Shown in pieces: positions 28,177 through 41,926 of a stretch of 64,000 nt of DNA; position 1 is the first letter of the stretch; every line of letters begins with the position of its first letter. The translations under genes were made by a program, and so were the position numbers. The notes beneath the pieces were generated by a model. It did no database searches. It had not been told where the DNA came from and saw nothing but the letters and a program-made list of their open reading frames with translations. Source of the stretch: Bacteroidetes bacterium GWF2_38_335 (GTDB lineage: Bacteria; Bacteroidota; Bacteroidia; Bacteroidales; GWF2-38-335); contig MEOH01000026.1 of the NCBI GenBank assembly GCA_001769535.1, positions 186,001-250,000 of the forward strand. Direction: 5' to 3'.

Positions 28177-29295
28177 TTATTTCATTAATATTTCGAACAT
28201 TTCGGTATGACTTACCACCTGGTGGGTTTTCCGGTTCTTTAAGATTATTATTGTCCAGTCTTTCTCAGGAACACGCACAAACATATTATGAAATCCATGC
28301 CACCAACCACCGTGAAAATAAACATTAAATCCCAGCTCTGATTTATACATTCTCCAACCATATCCGTAATTTTCGTCTGATTCTTCATTTTTGCCATAAG
28401 GTTGTAAACTTAAATCAATCATTTTTTCAGATAATATTTTATGTTCATGCAATGCCCGGTCCCATTTATATAAATCGTACACTGAACTATAAATTCCTTT
28501 GTCTCCGATAACACCATCAATAAAATTATCATCTGCCTCTGATTTACCATATTTATAACCTGTAGATGGCTTATAATTATGTTTAACTGAGTTTTCGGTA
28601 TATGAATTGCTCATTTCTAATGGCTTGAAAATATTTTTTTCAAGGTATTCATTGTATTTCATCCCTGAAACCTGCTCTACTATTGCTGCAAGTATTATAT
28701 ATCCCGTATTGCTGTAATCAAAAGTAATATCTGGCGGATAATATGGATCAGGCTTATGCTTTGTAATGGAATCCAGAACTGTCTGATTACTTATTTTTGT
28801 TGTTTTATCGGGTATTATATCATCCATGAAATAGATGTAATTTGGCAATCCGGACCTATGGCATAATAACAAATGTATCGTAATATTATGATAAGGAAAA
28901 TCAGGGAAAAATTTCTGAATGGTATCTCCCAGCGATATTTCACCCTTTTCTACAAGCTGCAAAATGCATGCAGCTGTAAACTGTTTGGAAACACTGGCCA
29001 ACTGAAAAGAGTGATGAATGGTGAGTTGTTCATTCTTTTTAAAATCGGCCATTCCAAAACACTTTTCATATATTATTATACCATGCTGTGCAATAAGAAC
29101 ATTTCCGTTAAATGCCTGATAATTATATAAACTGTCAAAATAAAATTCAAATAAGGCTTGTTTTTCTTTGATGTTCAGCGATTCTATCACAAATCTGGAA
29201 GTGTCATTATAATAAATTTTCCTGACAAAATTTACTTTCTCCTCACTGCAACTAAAAATTATCAATGCAGAAAATAAAATAATGATAAGCTTCAT
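28177..29295 (-). CDS. serine hydrolase lipoprotein, class C beta-lactamase fold
   Basis: A lipoprotein signal (LFSALIIFSCSEEK, lipobox Cys at residue 16) precedes a beta-lactamase/transpeptidase-like domain. Motifs in order: SVSK (S-x-x-K) near residue 101, YSNTG (Y-x-N) near 194, and HGGWWHG in the place of the K/H-x-G box near 336. Family members include D-Ala carboxypeptidases, esterases and peptidases, and the substrate cannot be told from sequence. At 372 residues it is a single-domain enzyme, outer- or inner-membrane-anchored. It lies 6 bp after the gene at 29302 on the same strand. Confidence 0.9.
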   Translation of the reverse strand: MKLIIILFSALIIFSCSEEKVNFVRKIYYNDTSRFVIESLNIKEKQALFEFYFDSLYNYQAFNGNVLIAQHGIIIYEKCFGMADFKKNEQLTIHHSFQLASVSKQFTAACILQLVEKGEISLGDTIQKFFPDFPYHNITIHLLLCHRSGLPNYIYFMDDIIPDKTTKISNQTVLDSITKHKPDPYYPPDITFDYSNTGYIILAAIVEQVSGMKYNEYLEKNIFKPLEMSNSYTENSVKHNYKPSTGYKYGKSEADDNFIDGVIGDKGIYSSVYDLYKWDRALHEHKILSEKMIDLSLQPYGKNEESDENYGYGWRMYKSELGFNVYFHGGWWHGFHNMFVRVPEKDWTIIILKNRKTHQVVSHTEMFEILMK

Positions 29296-29301
29296 ATTGA
29301 T

Positions 29302-33397: not shown

Positions 33398-34936
33398 TTA
33401 TTCTTTTGTTTTCAGGAAATTTTCCCAATCAGTATAAACATCTTTTTTAATCACCCTTGGAAATTTATTTTGGGCCCCCTCCTTGCCTTTTATTTTTAAC
33501 CATTCATAAAACCAGGAAACTGGAATTACTTTCATATATACTTCACACAAAGCACCTTTCCTCTCTACCCCATAATCATCATTCAGTTCAACAAGATAAT
33601 TATCAATTTTGCTTTTAATAACACCATCGTTAACTTCCCTAACTTTATCATCATCAACCCCAACATACCATTTATGTGCGAACAGACTGCCATGGGGAAT
33701 TCCGGATACAGTGAATTCATTTATATTGATATTGAGGTCATCAGCGGTCATTTTAACAGCTTTTGTCATATTGTCTACTGAAAGATGTTCACCAACCAGA
33801 CTTAAATAATGGCGTGTTCGGCCGGTAATAATCATCTGGAAATCTTTTTTGTTGGTAATCTTTACTGTATCTCCGATAATATACCTCCATGCACCTGCAC
33901 ATGTACTGATTAAAATGGCATAGTCAACCCCTTCTTGTACATTTTTCAAATCAATAACTTCTGGGTTTTCAACAACCTGACCATCGTGATCGAAGTTTTT
34001 ATCATTAAAGGGAATAAACTCAAAGAAAAGTCCTTTGTCTAAAACCAGTTGCATTTTTTTATTTTCATCAAACTGAGCTGCTAAAAATCCTTCTGAAGCA
34101 AGATAAGTTTCAAGAAAATGAATCTTTTCACCCAAAAGTTTTTCAAAACTGTTTTTGTAAGGTTCAAAGGAAACGCCGCCATGAACATAAAATTTCAGAT
34201 TGGGCCATACATCGTGGATGGTTTCAACCTTATAATGGCTGATAATTCTTTCAAAAAGAATCTGATACCAGGCAGGAACACCGGCACAGAGACCAATATC
34301 CCATTTCCCTGCTTTAGCAACTGTTTTATCGAGTTTTGTTGGCCAATCCTTTACTGCTGATATTTTTGCTCCGGGCTTATAAAAGTTCTGAAACCAAATT
34401 GGCAAATTACCGGTCATTATTCCGCTTAAATCGCCCTCATATCTCTTTCCAACCTTAGTAAGTGTAGTGCTTCCACCAAGCATTAAAGCGCTTTTTTGAA
34501 AAAACGAAGGTGGCAGGTTATAGTTTGAAAGCGAATAAGTCTGGCTAATACTGGTGCGACGAATGCTTTGAATCATGTCATTGGAAACAGGAATCCTTTT
34601 GCTTGCAGATTCCGAGGTACCGGAAGTCAGCGCGAAAAACTTAATTTTTCCGGGCCAGGTTACATTCGGTTCTCCTTCAATAGTCCGGTGCCAGTATTTT
34701 TCAAATATAGTTTCATAATTGTAAACCGGAACTCTTTTTTGATATTCAGCAATAATATTTCCTGATGTCAATATTTCTGAAAAACCGTAATCGCGCCCAA
34801 ACTGAGTATTTTTTGCCTTATTTAGTAGTTTTTTCAGTGTTTTTTCCTGAACCTCATAAGGATTAATAAGTTTCTTTTTCCTTTTAGCAGATTTTTGTTT
34901 AACAACTTCCTGTAATATTGTGCCAATAAATGCCAT
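33398..34936 (-). CDS. GH3-family acyl-acid amido synthetase-like protein
   Basis: This 512-residue member of the GH3 auxin-responsive-promoter family belongs to the acyl-adenylate-forming superfamily. The ATP/AMP phosphate-binding motif FALTSGTSESASKRIPVS lies near residues 105-122. Later motifs YLASEGFLAAQ, CAGAWRYIIGDTVKIT and TGRTRHYLSLVGEHLS are in the right order. Plant relatives conjugate hormones to amino acids; the bacterial substrate is unknown. No signal peptide. It is preceded by a 120-bp gap and ends at its own terminator, so it is probably transcribed alone. Confidence 0.9.
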   Translation of the reverse strand: MAFIGTILQEVVKQKSAKRKKKLINPYEVQEKTLKKLLNKAKNTQFGRDYGFSEILTSGNIIAEYQKRVPVYNYETIFEKYWHRTIEGEPNVTWPGKIKFFALTSGTSESASKRIPVSNDMIQSIRRTSISQTYSLSNYNLPPSFFQKSALMLGGSTTLTKVGKRYEGDLSGIMTGNLPIWFQNFYKPGAKISAVKDWPTKLDKTVAKAGKWDIGLCAGVPAWYQILFERIISHYKVETIHDVWPNLKFYVHGGVSFEPYKNSFEKLLGEKIHFLETYLASEGFLAAQFDENKKMQLVLDKGLFFEFIPFNDKNFDHDGQVVENPEVIDLKNVQEGVDYAILISTCAGAWRYIIGDTVKITNKKDFQMIITGRTRHYLSLVGEHLSVDNMTKAVKMTADDLNININEFTVSGIPHGSLFAHKWYVGVDDDKVREVNDGVIKSKIDNYLVELNDDYGVERKGALCEVYMKVIPVSWFYEWLKIKGKEGAQNKFPRVIKKDVYTDWENFLKTKE

Positions 34937-35056: not shown

Positions 35057-38000
35057 TCAGTTTATTTTCTCTGAAAACCCTTCAGATTTTTTAAGAGACA
35101 GATAAACCACATCATGCACCCGCTGCCGAATCTTTAAAGTATTTAAACGCCAGTTTTTCACATTAGGATGAACTCTGTTGGAGAGAAAAACATATACAAT
35201 TTTGTTGTCAGGATCGGCCCAAATGCAAGCTCCGGTAAATCCTGTGTGCCCAAATGTATTGCGCGAAGCCATGGAAGAAACAATATTCTTGCCTATTGCC
35301 TTATCAAAACCAAGACCCCTGTATGTATCAGGTTGATAATCGGTAAATAAATCGATTATATTTTCACTAAGGTAACGTTTTCCTCCGTAGACACCTTTAT
35401 TCAATAGCATTTGCAATATTATTCCAAGGTCATGTGCGCATGAAAACAGTCCGGCGTTACCCGCCACTCCCCCAAGTAAAGCAGCCGAAGGATCATGCAC
35501 ATAACCTCTTAAAGACTGTTCACGCCATCCTTTATCATTTTCGGTCGGAACAATTCGCTCTCTGGCATATTTCTTAAGTGGTCTGAATCCAATCGCCTGT
35601 AAACCCAAAGGTTTATAAAACTTTTTTTCAAGATACTCATCTATTGGAAATTTGTTTACCGAGTCAATGGCCTGTTGCAACACGATCATATTGGCATCAC
35701 TATACTGATATACCTTTTTCGAATAAATGCCGATCTGTTTAATATCATTCCAAAGCGTATCAAAATATTCATTTCTGAAATAAAGTTTTTCAGCAACCTG
35801 AATATCGCAGGTATCTTTTAGAAATTCCCTTGAATAGTACTTTTCAAAAAGAAATTTGGTGGTGTCGCGGCGCGATTTCAGGACAAGATCTTTATATTTT
35901 TCTCTGATACTGTCATTTGGAAAAAGATTTTTATCCTTTCGGTACTGCACATACCTTAAAATGGGAATAGCCGGAGGAAGACCGCTCCGGTGTGTAAGTA
36001 ATTCACGAACTTTGCATTTAAAGATATTCAACCGCGGAGTAACTCTTGAATAAAGTGTATCAAAAGCAATTATTACCGAATCATTTATATGAATTGTATC
36101 ACGTTCCCTTAACAACTTTGACATATCAGGAACATCCGAAACAACAAATGTATCAATAACTACGGTGGTATCCTGTTTAATTCTTTTATAATCAATTTGC
36201 CGGTCCTTAAAGTATTTTTCCATCTGATCGTTTAAGCCTATTTTACCTTCTTCGATCATTTTCATGGTAGCCAAAGTCGTAGCCATGACCTTGGTGACAG
36301 ATGCCACATCATACAAATCGTTCCACTTTACCGACGATCCACCATCATATGAATGCCTCCCATAGCCCTTATTTAATATTACCTTACCATCTTTTGCAAG
36401 GAAAACCTGACAGCCGGGGGTTGCACTTGATTTTAGTCCATCAAGTATCACAGAATCAATTTGAGAAAAGTCATCCTCAAGAATTCCAACCTCCTCGGGA
36501 AAGGAATACTGCAACCGGGTTTTTGGCGTTTTCAAGCCCAATCCGGTTTTGCCATCCCTTTCAATTTTCCAGGGTAATTTTCCACTGATGGCTATCCCTC
36601 CAAAAATCATTTCAGCAGCAATTTTACAAGCAACACTCTGGAAACTATTCATTTGAATAAAGCTGCAATTCATCTTTTGGAATAATTTATAATTCTCGAA
36701 ATTGAAATTATTGATGACAACCAAATGACCATTTTTAGAAACAGACTTTAAGTTTTTTAATAAAGCTGAATGACTGACTGTATCTATTACAATATCGTTC
36801 ATAAGAACTACTATATAGCCTGACTGCGGAAAAGATGGCTTGCTGTCGGCTGAAAAATGTTTGTAGTTATATTTCGGGGTATAATATTGAAGAATATTTT
36901 CAAAATCATTTGGTACTGTTTTGCCTATTGATGTGAAGCTAAACGTAGAATTCAGGTCGGGAACCGGAAGGTTTGCATTATGGTTTTTCAACAGCACCGG
37001 AGACTTCTCAAACAGTTGTGCTGCAATGTTTTTTGCCAGAACAAAATTTAATCTTTGGGCTGTTGAATCATTACGCAAAACATTGAATTTTTCTAAACCC
37101 GCCCATGATTTGGCAAGTAAAATTCTTTTGACTTTTTTATCAAGAAGCTCATCTGTAAAACTCCCTGCTTCACGAAGGGTTTTTATTTTTTCAATAATTT
37201 CTCTTGATTTAAAAAGGCCTTTAACAGAGATAATATCAGTTTCTGAATTCAGGATTTTTTCCAGCTCATTAGTATTGTTCAGTTTACAGATAATCAATCC
37301 CCTATAGTTTAAGTTTTTATTCAGATAATCTGTTATAAGTACCTTTTTTTCAATGGTTAACTCAAAAATTGAATCAACAATTATTGCTGATAACCCGGAA
37401 GAAATAAGCTGCTTATATATTGATTCTATCAGCTTAAAGGAAGATGAGTCATTAGTAAGTTTTTCATTAAACAATTCAACCCCCATGATGATGTTTTTTT
37501 TCTGAACTTTGCTGATCATTCCCTTTAAGATATTTACAATCCCGTTTAGTGAAGAAGAGTCTATCAGCATTTTTTCCGAAAAAGAAGAAAGTAGCCCGTT
37601 TGCAGTGAATGATACTCCAATATTTTTATTAAAAAAAGAAGAAAAATCCGAATATTTGCTGAGCAGAGCAGTATCATTAACAGTAAGGAGAGCATCGGAT
37701 TCAGGAAACACGATATTTTGATATGCAAAAGATTCAATCCCATTATTTTTATTACAATAAACAAACATTGGAATTTTGCAGTTATATTGGAGATTGTTAA
37801 CTGCTGAAAGGTATTTTTGGACAGAATCGAATGAAAAACTGACAGAACCAATGCTATAATACTCGCAGAACTCTTTTATTTTTTGAGTATCAGGGTTTAA
37901 AGAGTCAGTAATATCCACATGCAGCAATTCACCGATTTTTTCTTCGGTACTCATTACATTGATGAGTGAATCGGCCCATGCAGATTTGTGGTTCAGAAAT

Positions 38001-38128
38001 GGGGCATAGATTTCTGAAATTTCTTTTTTTTCAGAATTTGAAAGAATATTATGAATCAGAAACAATAAAACTGCTGAAATTGCTGCAATAATTGCAATAT
38101 CCTTTTTCAGACCTGCTGAATTTTTCAA
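35057..38128 (-). CDS. membrane-anchored fusion: degenerate GH3 glycosidase + class C beta-lactamase-like hydrolase
   Basis: The protein has 1023 residues: an N-terminal membrane anchor (about 10-30), a region with the layout of a family-3 glycoside hydrolase (about 45-350), a linking alpha/beta domain (about 360-530) and a serine-hydrolase domain (about 555-1010). The hydrolase motifs are intact: SVTK near 608, YSDAN near 818 and GHTGFTG near 973. An insert of about 60 residues follows the first motif. The glycosidase half has lost its signature residues. Where relatives have KHFPGHGDT it reads IIMGVELFNEKLT, and where they carry the nucleophile Asp (TDALNM) it reads ICKLNNT. A role in peptidoglycan recycling or modification is inference from the family. 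Confidence 0.85.
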   Translation of the reverse strand: MKNSAGLKKDIAIIAAISAVLLFLIHNILSNSEKKEISEIYAPFLNHKSAWADSLINVMSTEEKIGELLHVDITDSLNPDTQKIKEFCEYYSIGSVSFSFDSVQKYLSAVNNLQYNCKIPMFVYCNKNNGIESFAYQNIVFPESDALLTVNDTALLSKYSDFSSFFNKNIGVSFTANGLLSSFSEKMLIDSSSLNGIVNILKGMISKVQKKNIIMGVELFNEKLTNDSSSFKLIESIYKQLISSGLSAIIVDSIFELTIEKKVLITDYLNKNLNYRGLIICKLNNTNELEKILNSETDIISVKGLFKSREIIEKIKTLREAGSFTDELLDKKVKRILLAKSWAGLEKFNVLRNDSTAQRLNFVLAKNIAAQLFEKSPVLLKNHNANLPVPDLNSTFSFTSIGKTVPNDFENILQYYTPKYNYKHFSADSKPSFPQSGYIVVLMNDIVIDTVSHSALLKNLKSVSKNGHLVVINNFNFENYKLFQKMNCSFIQMNSFQSVACKIAAEMIFGGIAISGKLPWKIERDGKTGLGLKTPKTRLQYSFPEEVGILEDDFSQIDSVILDGLKSSATPGCQVFLAKDGKVILNKGYGRHSYDGGSSVKWNDLYDVASVTKVMATTLATMKMIEEGKIGLNDQMEKYFKDRQIDYKRIKQDTTVVIDTFVVSDVPDMSKLLRERDTIHINDSVIIAFDTLYSRVTPRLNIFKCKVRELLTHRSGLPPAIPILRYVQYRKDKNLFPNDSIREKYKDLVLKSRRDTTKFLFEKYYSREFLKDTCDIQVAEKLYFRNEYFDTLWNDIKQIGIYSKKVYQYSDANMIVLQQAIDSVNKFPIDEYLEKKFYKPLGLQAIGFRPLKKYARERIVPTENDKGWREQSLRGYVHDPSAALLGGVAGNAGLFSCAHDLGIILQMLLNKGVYGGKRYLSENIIDLFTDYQPDTYRGLGFDKAIGKNIVSSMASRNTFGHTGFTGACIWADPDNKIVYVFLSNRVHPNVKNWRLNTLKIRQRVHDVVYLSLKKSEGFSEKIN

Positions 38129-38151
38129 ATACCAGTTTTTTTAATTAAAAA

Positions 38152-38175
38152 AAAGCAAGATAATATCTTGCTTTC
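38152..38175 (-). terminator. terminator after the 38197 gene
   Basis: A stem GCAAGATA/TATCTTGC (38155-38171), extended by A/T pairs, is followed on the minus strand by a long T-run. It separates the 145-residue secreted protein gene from the fusion gene at 35057. Confidence 0.8.
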
Positions 38176-38793: not shown

Positions 38794-39015
38794 TTAAAAA
38801 TTGTATTTTACACCGTCAACAACGGCAGATTTTATTTCTTTATAATCAACAATTTCAATATTTTTATTTGTTTCATTATGAGCCACAAAGCTTTCATCTG
38901 TATAACAGGTATTTCCGGTTAGCGGAATAAAATAAATGAACCTGTCCGTTTTTAAAATGAACTGGTATTTTGCCTGTTTCAGCATTTTTTCAAATGTACT
39001 TTTGTTTAAGCTCAT
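38794..39015 (-). CDS. small protein coupled to the acyltransferase gene
   Basis: This 73-residue ORF starts MSLNKSTFEKMLKQAKYQF. Its start codon overlaps the stop of the acyltransferase gene at 39012 in an ATGA arrangement, which argues for translational coupling. It is an alpha/beta cytoplasmic protein with no motif I recognise. Its sequence does not restore the missing C-terminal subdomain of the upstream protein, so it is not simply a frameshifted continuation. Confidence 0.6.
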   Translation of the reverse strand: MSLNKSTFEKMLKQAKYQFILKTDRFIYFIPLTGNTCYTDESFVAHNETNKNIEIVDYKEIKSAVVDGVKYNF

Positions 39016-40697
39016 TTTTTTAAAAATAAAAATCCATCTTTATCTATATAGCCATTGCTGCAAGAAACGTACCAGCCCTTTTCAAAACGGGCTTCTTTTA
39101 ACGTTTTTTCACTTAACCCAAAGCCTTTTATCTGCAATCGCCCCTCTTCACCCTCACCTTTTAGAACAAATCCGTCATTTTCATCACATATCTTAATTGC
39201 GACTCCGGGCAACATACGACCAACAGAACCTTCCCTGCTGCAATGCTGGACAAACTCTTTTCCCGCAATATCTTTACCTGAAAAATCAGGTGTATTCAAC
39301 GAAATCATCGGGAAAAATTCGTCTCCATATCCTTCTAATACCTTTATACCATTTTCTGAAGATAAATGTTTCTTAATTTCAGCAGATAATAGTCCGTCAG
39401 TGACAATTATTTTTCCAACCCCATCTGACAGAAAAAGGTAATTTTCCTCAACCCATTTCTTTTCCGAAATAATTATTGAAACATCTTTGTTAATATCCTT
39501 ATTTTCAATGCTAAAATTAATTTGTTTTAAACCTTTAATTAAAGCAAGTAACGTAAAAACAACTGCAATGGGTTTATCTGGTTGAATTGTAAGTCCGATG
39601 GTATCATTTTTATTAAATGCAAGCACCTGATCAAGACTTAAAACACACAAAATTAAATTTTTATGAGTATAATCACCGTTTTTGGTAATTAAAGAGATCA
39701 AATTTGAATTTCCCTGAAGTCTGGTAAATGGAAATAATTTTCCTAATATTCCATTTGCCATACAAACCGGACTGATGGTGTTTTTCAGTTCCTTTGTAGT
39801 GAAAACCAAATCTTCTCCTATAAAGGTATTTTTTTCATTTACTATCCTTATAAAATCAGAATAATTATTTGCAATATCCTTAGTTATCATCGTTTTGCCA
39901 GCCAGCAGGATAATTTTTATAAAAAACTGATATTCATCGGAATTAAAATCCATGTAAATAAGATTTTGTTTTTTCATGGTTTTTAAAAAACGAGCTGAAA
40001 TTGCCAGATCAAGGTATGAAACGGAGCTTTTTTTGGAAAACAACAGGTAATACGATATACTCTCTTCATTTTTTACCCGGTAAGTAAAGGCTTCCGACTC
40101 CAGCTCCTTTAGTTTTTGTCTGATTTGAAAGGAACTGGTATCAAAGGGTAATTTTTCGCCAATTGAAATTGTAATCGGAGTGCGGAAGGGCGATATTTTC
40201 AGTTTTACAGGTTTAGATTTACCCGTTTTAAAAGTAAAAGGCGAACCCAGCGCATTATCCACATAAAAAGGAATGATTGGTGATTTTGACTGTCGGGCAA
40301 TTAGCTCAAACCCCTTTTTAAATCCAAGCATAAATCCATTGCGGGGCATTTCACCCTCGGGAAATACGCAAACAATTTCACCTGCATTGATTTCTCTGCA
40401 ACATTTTCCGTAGAAATCCATTAATTCTGTTTTGCTTCTTGTGCTTGCAATGGGAATCATTCGTAAGGAAAAAAGGAACTTCCCAAGTATTGGGGTTTTA
40501 AAAACCTCTTTATAAATAACGAACCTTATCATTCTGGGTTCACCAGAAGCAACGATTGCTGCATCAAGTAATGAATTATGGTTAGGAATAAGCAGTGCAC
40601 CTCCTTTGAGAGGAAAATTTTCGGCTCCGGTAACCCTTACTTTATACAGCAGCTTACCGATAACCCGGAAAGTGTATCTTACTATTTCAGTGATCAT
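39012..40697 (-). CDS. PlsC-type acyltransferase fused to a degenerate AMP-binding domain
   Basis: I start at 40697, where ATG overlaps the stop of the MFS gene by one base; the frame runs 28 codons further without similarity. Residues ~10-210 are a 1-acyl-glycerol-phosphate acyltransferase: NHNSLLDAA (H-x4-D) and FPEGEMPRNG are intact. The rest (about 230-561) follows the layout of an acyl-ACP synthetase of the Aas type, with GYGDEFFP and GSVGRMLPGVAIKI. However, the ATP-binding Ser/Thr/Gly loop is missing, the TGD motif has become SCS (GWYVSCSNG), and the protein stops at IDKDGFLFLKK, lacking the C-terminal lysine subdomain. With the adjacent LplT-like transporter it suggests lysophospholipid salvage, with an inactive synthetase half. 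Confidence 0.8.
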   Translation of the reverse strand: MITEIVRYTFRVIGKLLYKVRVTGAENFPLKGGALLIPNHNSLLDAAIVASGEPRMIRFVIYKEVFKTPILGKFLFSLRMIPIASTRSKTELMDFYGKCCREINAGEIVCVFPEGEMPRNGFMLGFKKGFELIARQSKSPIIPFYVDNALGSPFTFKTGKSKPVKLKISPFRTPITISIGEKLPFDTSSFQIRQKLKELESEAFTYRVKNEESISYYLLFSKKSSVSYLDLAISARFLKTMKKQNLIYMDFNSDEYQFFIKIILLAGKTMITKDIANNYSDFIRIVNEKNTFIGEDLVFTTKELKNTISPVCMANGILGKLFPFTRLQGNSNLISLITKNGDYTHKNLILCVLSLDQVLAFNKNDTIGLTIQPDKPIAVVFTLLALIKGLKQINFSIENKDINKDVSIIISEKKWVEENYLFLSDGVGKIIVTDGLLSAEIKKHLSSENGIKVLEGYGDEFFPMISLNTPDFSGKDIAGKEFVQHCSREGSVGRMLPGVAIKICDENDGFVLKGEGEEGRLQIKGFGLSEKTLKEARFEKGWYVSCSNGYIDKDGFLFLKK

Positions 40698-41926
40698 TAA
40701 GCTTTTCTTTTTCTGAATAATTTTATAAACAGCTTTATAATACCGGGATGTAAAATAATTGACAGGGCAATCATGATCCAAGAAACTGCAGCAATTGCAA
40801 GGAAAACCATTACAGAATTTTCTATAACCATAAAAATTACAGCAGACGTCAGGACAAATGAAAAAATTGAAAAATTATTAAAGGCCAGGATATCACCTAA
40901 TTTTCGGCCTTCAACCCTATCCTGTATAAAAGCATTCAATGGAACCATATAAATACCTGCAAAAAAAGCTGCAATAAGAAGCAACAGTGTAAAAAGTTCA
41001 ACGGCTGGATTCAAAAAATAAATCATGGTAAAAGGGATGGAAAAGCCAATTGCCCCAATGGGCACAAGAGACAACCTGACTTTCTTTCCGGAAAGCAGTC
41101 CGGCAGCCAGACTCCCTGCAGCCACGCAAACAGCAACACCGGCAATAATGTATCCTGTTTCAGTTTTACTAATATTCAAAACATTTGGTCCGTGCACCGC
41201 GATAACCATATCAACCATTGAAACTGAAAGCCAGAATAGACCTAGACAGAGAATGACATTTAACAATCCAGGAATATTTTTTGACCATTTAATAGAACCA
41301 ACAAAAGATTTAAGTGTTGATTCATTGTTTTTTTCAGTTTCAGATTCAACGGCTTTTATGTTTATAGCCGAATACCATCCATTAAACGCGATGAGAATGA
41401 CCAAACCAATAATAAAATAATCCTGATGGCCTGAAACATCTGCAACAATACCGGCCAGAACAGCTCCTGATAAATTTCCAAGAAAGGCAACCATTTCAAA
41501 TGCACCACTACCGAACGATATTCCCTCCTTTCCTCCAATATCCCTGATCAATCCATATTTAGCGGGACTAAAGAGACATGAAATGATACCCATAAGAAAA
41601 ATCGTTAATAAAACCAGGTACACTGAGTTCATCAGAAATCCCATTCCACCAATTACAGCAACAGGAAACTCAGCAATTTTAGCCCAGATAACAATTTTTC
41701 TTTTGAGGTATTGGCGTGATAGCTTTCCGGCAAATGGTGAAAAAACAATGTATGGCAGAACAAATAAAAAACCGCTCAATCCCAGATAGAAATTCATCAG
41801 GTCCCCATCATTTTCCTTTCCTGCAATCCAGTAAATACTCACAAATGCGAATAACTTTTTCAGGAAACTGTCATTTAATATTCCGAAAAAATTCAGAGAC
41901 AACAATGGGAACCATTTACCAAGCAT
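40697..41926 (-). CDS. MFS transporter, lysophospholipid flippase (LplT)-like
   Basis: This 409-residue protein has about 12 membrane segments. The N-terminus LLSLNFFGILNDSFLKKLFAF and the loop FSPAKYGLIRDI match the LplT branch of the major facilitator superfamily, which flips lysophospholipids to the cytoplasmic leaflet for re-acylation. The acyltransferase gene starts within its stop codon (TAATG), so both are co-translated. In many bacteria these parts are fused in one Aas-type polypeptide. Here they are split. Confidence 0.85.
   Translation of the reverse strand: MLGKWFPLLSLNFFGILNDSFLKKLFAFVSIYWIAGKENDGDLMNFYLGLSGFLFVLPYIVFSPFAGKLSRQYLKRKIVIWAKIAEFPVAVIGGMGFLMNSVYLVLLTIFLMGIISCLFSPAKYGLIRDIGGKEGISFGSGAFEMVAFLGNLSGAVLAGIVADVSGHQDYFIIGLVILIAFNGWYSAINIKAVESETEKNNESTLKSFVGSIKWSKNIPGLLNVILCLGLFWLSVSMVDMVIAVHGPNVLNISKTETGYIIAGVAVCVAAGSLAAGLLSGKKVRLSLVPIGAIGFSIPFTMIYFLNPAVELFTLLLLIAAFFAGIYMVPLNAFIQDRVEGRKLGDILAFNNFSIFSFVLTSAVIFMVIENSVMVFLAIAAVSWIMIALSIILHPGIIKLFIKLFRKRKA

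Follow-up and report, generated by a model that had tools for sequence, protein, structure and literature searches.

A gene in a 64,000-nucleotide stretch of DNA from Bacteroidetes bacterium GWF2_38_335 (contig MEOH01000026.1, positions 186,001 to 250,000; the window hereafter means that whole stretch) encodes a fusion of a NagZ-like glycoside hydrolase family 3 (GH3) half with a serine hydrolase of beta-lactamase fold, in which all but one of the nine presumed glycosidase active-site residues have been replaced and the hydrolase motifs are intact. A preliminary description of this DNA had noted a dead-looking glycosidase joined to an intact serine hydrolase; this is borne out, and it extends to a clade of 39 proteins, none of which carries the GH3 motif KHFPGH. 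The explanation we favour, and consider reasonably probable, is that the dead GH3 half has been retained as a pedestal for a membrane-anchored serine hydrolase. The features of the gene and its upstream flank are:

35057..38128, minus strand (38128 to 35057): fusion-protein gene, an open reading frame (ORF) of 1023 amino acids (aa) with a TTG start, the start codon not being certain
38036..38119, minus strand: N-terminal hydrophobic helix, probable membrane anchor, residues 4-31
37109..37996, minus strand: dead GH3 domain 1, eight-strand barrel, residues 45-340
37442..37477, minus strand: site of the lost KHFPGH/DxH acid-base loop, residues 218-229 (E218 L219 ... D227 S228 S229)
37283..37285, minus strand: site of the lost nucleophile Asp, now K282
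36524..37108, minus strand: GH3 domain 2 (alpha/beta), residues 341-535
35084..36496, minus strand: serine hydrolase, beta-lactamase fold, residues 545-1015
36290..36301, minus strand: S-x-x-K (SVTK), residues 610-613
36020..36196, minus strand: clade-specific insert, residues about 645-703
35696..35704, minus strand: Y-S-D, residues 809-811
35240..35248, minus strand: H-T-G, residues 961-963
38151..38175, minus strand: terminator-like hairpin of 11 pairs followed by a T run, between the upstream gene and the fusion gene

Pfam recognises only the second half of the window protein. PF00144 (beta-lactamase) is matched at 1.5e-39, its 136.6 bits well above the gathering cut-off of 27, while the two GH3 families fall below theirs (PF00933, 15.2 bits vs 27; PF01915, 12.5 vs 31). 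Six of 19 clade members match PF00933 at E<=0.01 and the other 13 do not. The first half is nevertheless GH3 by descent, because three comparisons converge on it. Profile-profile comparison of the 39 clade members with 47 live relatives, which retain the KHFPGH-type motif, gave probability 100 and E 2.8e-63 over 490 columns; a 19-row profile matched Bacillus subtilis YbbD/NagZ among PDB sequences at 3.5e-21; and the AlphaFold2 model superposes on B. subtilis NagZ (3bmx) with a Z-score of 31.8 and a root mean square deviation of 3.5 over 484 aligned positions (residues 45-535). The mean predicted local distance difference test (pLDDT) score of the model is 74.9, with most of the GH3 half at 80-94 and a few blocks at 63-77. 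All eight barrel strands are present (residues 69-77, 95-99, 122-125, 174-177, 214-218, 248-251, 278-282 and 299-303), as are the strands of domain 2. The two-domain GH3/NagZ fold is thus predicted to be kept, as the preliminary description had proposed for the family layout. B. subtilis NagZ/YbbD (3bmx, 4gyj), an active enzyme, shares this fold at 16% identity and differs in having no hydrolase domain. The order of domains in the window protein (GH3 domain 1, GH3 domain 2, beta-lactamase fold) is that of the NagZ-beta-lactamase fusions of RmNag3 type.

To locate the active site, we mapped 24 positions conserved in the live relatives onto the window protein and took nine of them, which we presume to have catalytic or sugar-contact roles (among them the dyad Asp and His and the nucleophile D308), as the active site. 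Eight of the nine are changed: D123 to N126, E125 to N128, R131 to F134, R191 to S191, K221 to E218, H222 to L219, H234 to S229 and D308 to K282. The sole survivor is the dyad Asp, D232, present as D227. Among the other fifteen positions the same letter is found at S192 (S192), S233 (S228) and D334 (D298). A survey of these columns across the clade gave a similar picture, with KHFPGH in 0/39 members, the dyad His in 0/39, Asp in the nucleophile column in 9/39, and the dyad Asp in 34/39 with gaps in the remaining five; the sugar-contact positions D123, E125, R191, K221 and H222 have been replaced with no new majority residue. The 47 live rows were selected by the pattern KHFPG[HQ]G, so that K221, H222, P224 and G225 are invariant in them by construction; D123, D232, H234 and D308 are not. 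The original claim that both the His/Asp motif and the nucleophile Asp are missing therefore stands for the dyad His, KHFPGH and the nucleophile, but not for the dyad Asp.

Retention of that Asp probably has a structural basis. In the model D227 lies immediately ahead of helix 228-243, and two other well-kept residues, D152 and D190, also directly precede helices, so helix capping is the simplest reason for its survival. We also considered whether an intact His/Asp pair is supplied to the GH3 site from elsewhere in the chain, and rejected this: by sequence columns and predicted strands, without side-chain coordinates, the only His residues between positions 45 and 340 are H47, ahead of the barrel, and H70, within strand 1, neither in a column conserved at 70%, and no His or Glu is conserved at >=70% in GH3 domain 2. 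The computed loss of residues suggests that the GH3 half lacks glycosidase activity. By its sequence, the window protein belongs to the fusion family by descent and is not a GH3 glycosidase by the defining residues.

The clade was defined from a family alignment of 91 distinct proteins of at least 600 aa (shorter ORFs were left out) and a tree built by a quick method from the hydrolase half minus the insert. The 39 motif-less proteins, including that of the window, form a single clade with a Shimodaira-Hasegawa-like approximate likelihood ratio test (SH-aLRT) support of 100, inside the known GH3-beta-lactamase fusion family. A clade of this size rules out an accident or assembly error in one genome.

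Conservation within this clade differs sharply between the two halves of the protein. Median pairwise identity among the 39 dead proteins is 0.193 for the barrel, 0.217 for domain 2 and 0.465 for the hydrolase, compared with 0.482, 0.304 and 0.439 among the 47 live ones. Columns conserved at >=70% number 11/296 in the dead barrel vs 131/332 in the live, 19/200 vs 36/208 in domain 2 and 160/483 vs 135/406 in the hydrolase. The loss is concentrated around the former pocket: mean BLOSUM62 scores in the dead clade and at the same positions of the live relatives are -0.03 and 3.54 for active-face loops, 0.58 and 2.82 for strands, 1.04 and 3.02 for bottom loops, 0.18 and 2.08 for helices, and 0.71 and 1.42 for domain 2, with helix 326-342 reaching 1.80 in the dead clade. 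The pocket-side loops, the best-kept class of the GH3 half in the live relatives, are the worst-kept in the dead clade, so that the ranking is inverted. From strand 4 to strand 8, the strand-to-strand spans of the window protein are also 6, 14, 9 and 10 residues shorter than those of L037, an intact sibling of 986 aa in the same genome.

The GH3 half is under purifying selection all the same. In eight close pairs of dead proteins the ratio of non-synonymous to synonymous substitution rates (dN/dS) is 0.20-0.38 for the barrel, 0.13-0.45 for domain 2 and, in the hydrolase, 0.06-0.12; saturation prevented an estimate for a ninth pair. Most of the length is kept, with GH3 halves of 379-542 aa in the 39 dead proteins and 509-542 aa in the live. 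The reading frame is open too: a search with the insert, made without a length filter, gave 38 matches (37 dead, one live-type), all in stop-free ORFs of 840-1079 aa, and it is on this search, not on the alignment of proteins of at least 600 aa, that the statement rests.

Because the fold seems to be kept and the pocket is not, a structural role is favoured over sugar binding. The preliminary description had suggested the latter, in the form of a peptidoglycan- or sugar-binding module. On this view the dead half would be lectin-like and would recruit the hydrolase to peptidoglycan or to some other glycan of the envelope. The preserved barrel shape and the one Asp of the old pocket kept in most of the clade fit that proposal, the strongest of the alternatives, but we consider it unlikely. 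A binding module would be expected to show a conserved surface and the pocket-side loops are the least conserved part; the old sugar contacts have given way to no new consensus; and the surviving Asp sits ahead of a helix just as D152 and D190 do.

The hydrolase half presents the opposite case. The serine beta-lactamase/DD-peptidase superfamily (PF00144) is defined by the motifs S-x-x-K, Y-x-[ND] and [KH]-x-G, and the window protein has all three, as S-x-x-K, YSD and HTG, as first described. Across the 39 clade members Ser610, His961 and Gly963 are kept in every one, and Lys613, Tyr809 and Asp811 in 38 each. In most of the clade this half also carries an insert of about 54 aa, which follows the serine helix, precedes the LLxHxSG helix and lies near the active site. 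The span that holds it measures 98-109 aa in 30/39 dead proteins and 47-74 aa in the other nine, against 47 aa in 45/47 live ones. The model gives it a strand-helix-strand form at about residues 653-694, with a pLDDT of about 72-79 in its central part that falls off towards the edges. Across 19 aligned rows a dozen insert positions do not vary, and in these rows the insert is better conserved than the GH3 half. The first branch of the clade, of five rows, lacks the insert, so its gain is most simply placed after the death of the glycosidase.

We used the insert alone (one degenerate pattern, in the half of the protein that does not carry the GH3 motif) to scan named genomes and found 18 loci, all 18 without KHFPGH. 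All are metagenome-assembled, labelled Bacteroidales (8), Bacteroidetes (4), Bacteroidia (2), Marinilabiliales (1) and, as bins, Rikenella, Draconibacterium and Paludibacter (1 each); 17 of the 18 are the same sequences as alignment rows, so this count and the 39/39 are not independent. An insert profile matched 35/393 genomes of the order. One of these matches, in G148 (L167), is a live-type protein and was not counted as dead, leaving 34/393 genomes with dead copies. In a draw across the phylum the profile matched 1/395 genomes, the window's own; this profile is silent on members without the insert, such as the dead copy (L066) of G036, a genome absent from its matches. A genome of the same genus as the window's (G001) has a live copy and no insert match.

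Beyond the 39-member clade there are five further rows without the motif, which fall into four lineages, and the tree needs five changes in all. A single origin of all 44 motif-less rows was not rejected (approximately unbiased test, p-AU 0.19), so the four outside lineages are unproven as separate losses. Among them, L073 (in G018) still has HFPGH and both Asp residues, that of the dyad and the nucleophile, but Lys for the dyad His, and to judge by these residues may represent an early step in the loss of the glycosidase; L055 (in G035) has lost KHFPGH and the dyad residues and keeps the hydrolase Ser, Lys, Tyr and His; and L093_p13245 (650 aa, in G038) has no barrel but a working-looking hydrolase with its Ser, Lys, Tyr and His. 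Two further observations concern live-type genes. In G055, G325 and G386, all of one family, a live-type GH3 domain is found in ORFs of 620-624 aa, too short for a full hydrolase half, alongside dead fusions of 840-943 aa. In G017 a live-type fusion (L040) is split into ORFs of 697 and 314 aa; two dead copies are also present in this genome, and a different contig of it holds a second live-type match.

Dead and live copies commonly share a genome: 30 of 35 genomes bearing a dead copy match the live GH3 domain strongly (E below 1e-60), the motif not having been checked in every one. The dead copy could conceivably be a pseudoenzyme partner of its live sibling, paired with it through the GH3 halves and regulating or stabilising it, which would also suit the better preservation of the bottom loops and of the helix into domain 2 relative to the rest of the barrel. 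We regard this as improbable. A live copy is present in at least 45/60 genomes of the relatives sample in any case (the window's own included), and on this base rate we rejected co-occurrence as evidence of pairing; moreover, five of the 35 genomes lack a strong live match, and the flanking DNA retrieved for the 39 dead genes contained no live copy. A broader version, in which the dead fusion is a non-catalytic regulatory or assembly partner through which the live sibling's envelope hydrolysis is controlled and the insert-bearing hydrolase has a new substrate, is improbable to a like degree.

What the hydrolase acts on can be approached through its motifs and fold. Its closest fold is that of EstG (Z-score 35.8, 20% identity), and a D-amino acid amidase is also among the near matches, as are family VIII esterases and class C beta-lactamase/DD-peptidase relatives, which like EstG have the beta-lactamase fold. 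A W-x-G third motif defines family VIII carboxylesterases and EstG, and here the window protein differs, its HTG aligning with W-G-G in EstG, 4ivi and 7pp3. HTG is typical of R61-type DD-peptidases, which inclines us to a D-amino-acid peptide of the cell wall; by this analogy a D-amino-acid peptide of peptidoglycan would be the likeliest substrate. The rival view, in which periplasmic glucans take the place of peptidoglycan as substrate, would echo EstG and BglX of Caulobacter, the latter a GH3 enzyme, and draws on EstG being the best structural match. In the sections of PMC11389396 that deal with them, EstG and BglX are named as enzymes of osmoregulated periplasmic glucans. With the third motif at odds with W-G-G and only a fifth of residues identical to EstG, a glucan substrate seems quite improbable.

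The N-terminal helix is probably a membrane anchor, not a cleaved signal. A segment of mean hydropathy >=1.8 is present at the N-terminus of 38/39 clade members, the 39th being cut by a contig end, and one member has a lipobox-like motif. In the window protein the next Met after the TTG start is residue 59, and a start there would drop the helix.

Taken as a retained pedestal, the dead half would fit the following scheme. A duplicated copy of the NagZ-beta-lactamase fusion would have lost glycosidase activity and persisted in a single order of Bacteroidota as a lineage of its own. Its single N-terminal helix would hold the protein in the inner membrane, and the dead GH3 half, folded as barrel plus domain 2, would serve as a rigid pedestal and folding partner that places the hydrolase in the periplasm. 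The hydrolase would then do the chemistry by acyl-enzyme catalysis through Ser610/Lys613, Tyr809 and His961, most likely on wall peptide, and the conserved insert that most of the clade carries beside the catalytic serine helix would probably shape substrate choice.

Several points weigh against this scheme. A fast-evolving binding surface would look much like what we observe, and at 19% identity single columns may be misaligned. The barrel alone varies from 197 to 307 aa across the clade and is much reduced in some members (in L099 the end of the contig cuts it short), and conservation of the pedestal is thus not rigid; the barrel-less L093_p13245, outside the clade, indicates that a barrel is not needed throughout the family. 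The eight pairs used for dN/dS have synonymous divergences (dS) of 0.93-2.88 and share branches. The anchor was distinguished from a signal peptide by hydropathy only, and 34/47 live-type proteins pass the same threshold. On the substrate, the window protein misses the NCBIfam cut-off for PBP4B (NF002968; 162.3 bits vs 385), and its best fold match, EstG, is reported to act on a cyclic glucan, not peptidoglycan (PMC11389396). Ordinary decay, with the GH3 half passive baggage on its way out, would account for the low identity, the scattered loop deletions and the barrel-less relative, but is the least probable reading of all given the 38/38 insert matches in stop-free ORFs of 840 aa or more, the confident fold prediction and a GH3 dN/dS below 0.5 in all eight pairs with estimates.

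The surroundings of the gene gave no sign of a conserved operon: genes of the window recur at ten other dead loci only as scattered domain matches, and no neighbour is common to the clade, the commonest neighbour cluster being found at 7/39 loci (several stretches hold little beyond the gene itself). The gene upstream encodes 145 aa with no Pfam family at E<=0.001, and because the hairpin at 38151-38175 separates it from the fusion gene, the latter is probably transcribed on its own. Three other genes in the window deserve mention. The downstream neighbour (33398-34936) matches the Pfam family named 'GH3', PF03321, an unrelated family, presumably of plant-type acyl-acid-amido synthetases, whose shared short name invites confusion. 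On the strand of the fusion gene, at a distance of about 6 kb, there is a stand-alone beta-lactamase-family ORF of 374 aa (28180-29301; PF00144, 5.2e-52). At 39012-41926 two ORFs overlap by 85 bases, one for an acyltransferase (also weakly matching an AMP-ligase) and one for a major facilitator superfamily (MFS) transporter, which suggests a misplaced acyltransferase start.

The architecture itself is already known. RmNag3 of Rhodothermus marinus combines GH3 domains 1 and 2 with a beta-lactamase domain, is an active beta-N-acetylglucosaminidase, and was described in 2020 as the sole characterised enzyme of its type, according to the passages of PMC6987092 devoted to it. Compared by description, with no alignment, RmNag3 and the window protein share the order of GH3 barrel, domain 2 and beta-lactamase domain and an N-terminal export signal; they differ in that RmNag3 is active, whereas the window protein lacks the needed residues and has a probable anchor and a hydrolase insert. 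The 47 live-type fusions, L037 among them, likewise share the architecture, the hydrolase motifs and a hydrolase half about equally conserved, but have KHFPGHGDT..DSH and TDA..M intact and no insert. For a spacer domain there is precedent in Bacteroidota in DUF1735, which differs in having an immunoglobulin (Ig)-like fold, in occurring in polysaccharide utilization loci and in not being a former enzyme, as set out in the part of PMC11216935 concerned with it. A search of the open-licence literature found no report of an inactive GH3 half in a NagZ-beta-lactamase fusion, and the portion of the pseudoenzyme review PMC10211241 that was searched has no occurrence of 'glycosid' or 'glycoside hydrolase'.

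The new part appears to be the dead GH3 lineage within the fusion family. It carries a hazard for annotation, in that Pfam mostly shows no GH3 N-terminal match and fold-based annotation suggests a glucosaminidase, both of which mislead. It would also amount to a pseudo-glycosidase lineage inside a bacterial two-enzyme fusion, spread over many family groups of one order and usually accompanied by a live-type sibling in the same genome, and as such would offer a natural experiment on why an enzyme domain is retained after its activity has gone.

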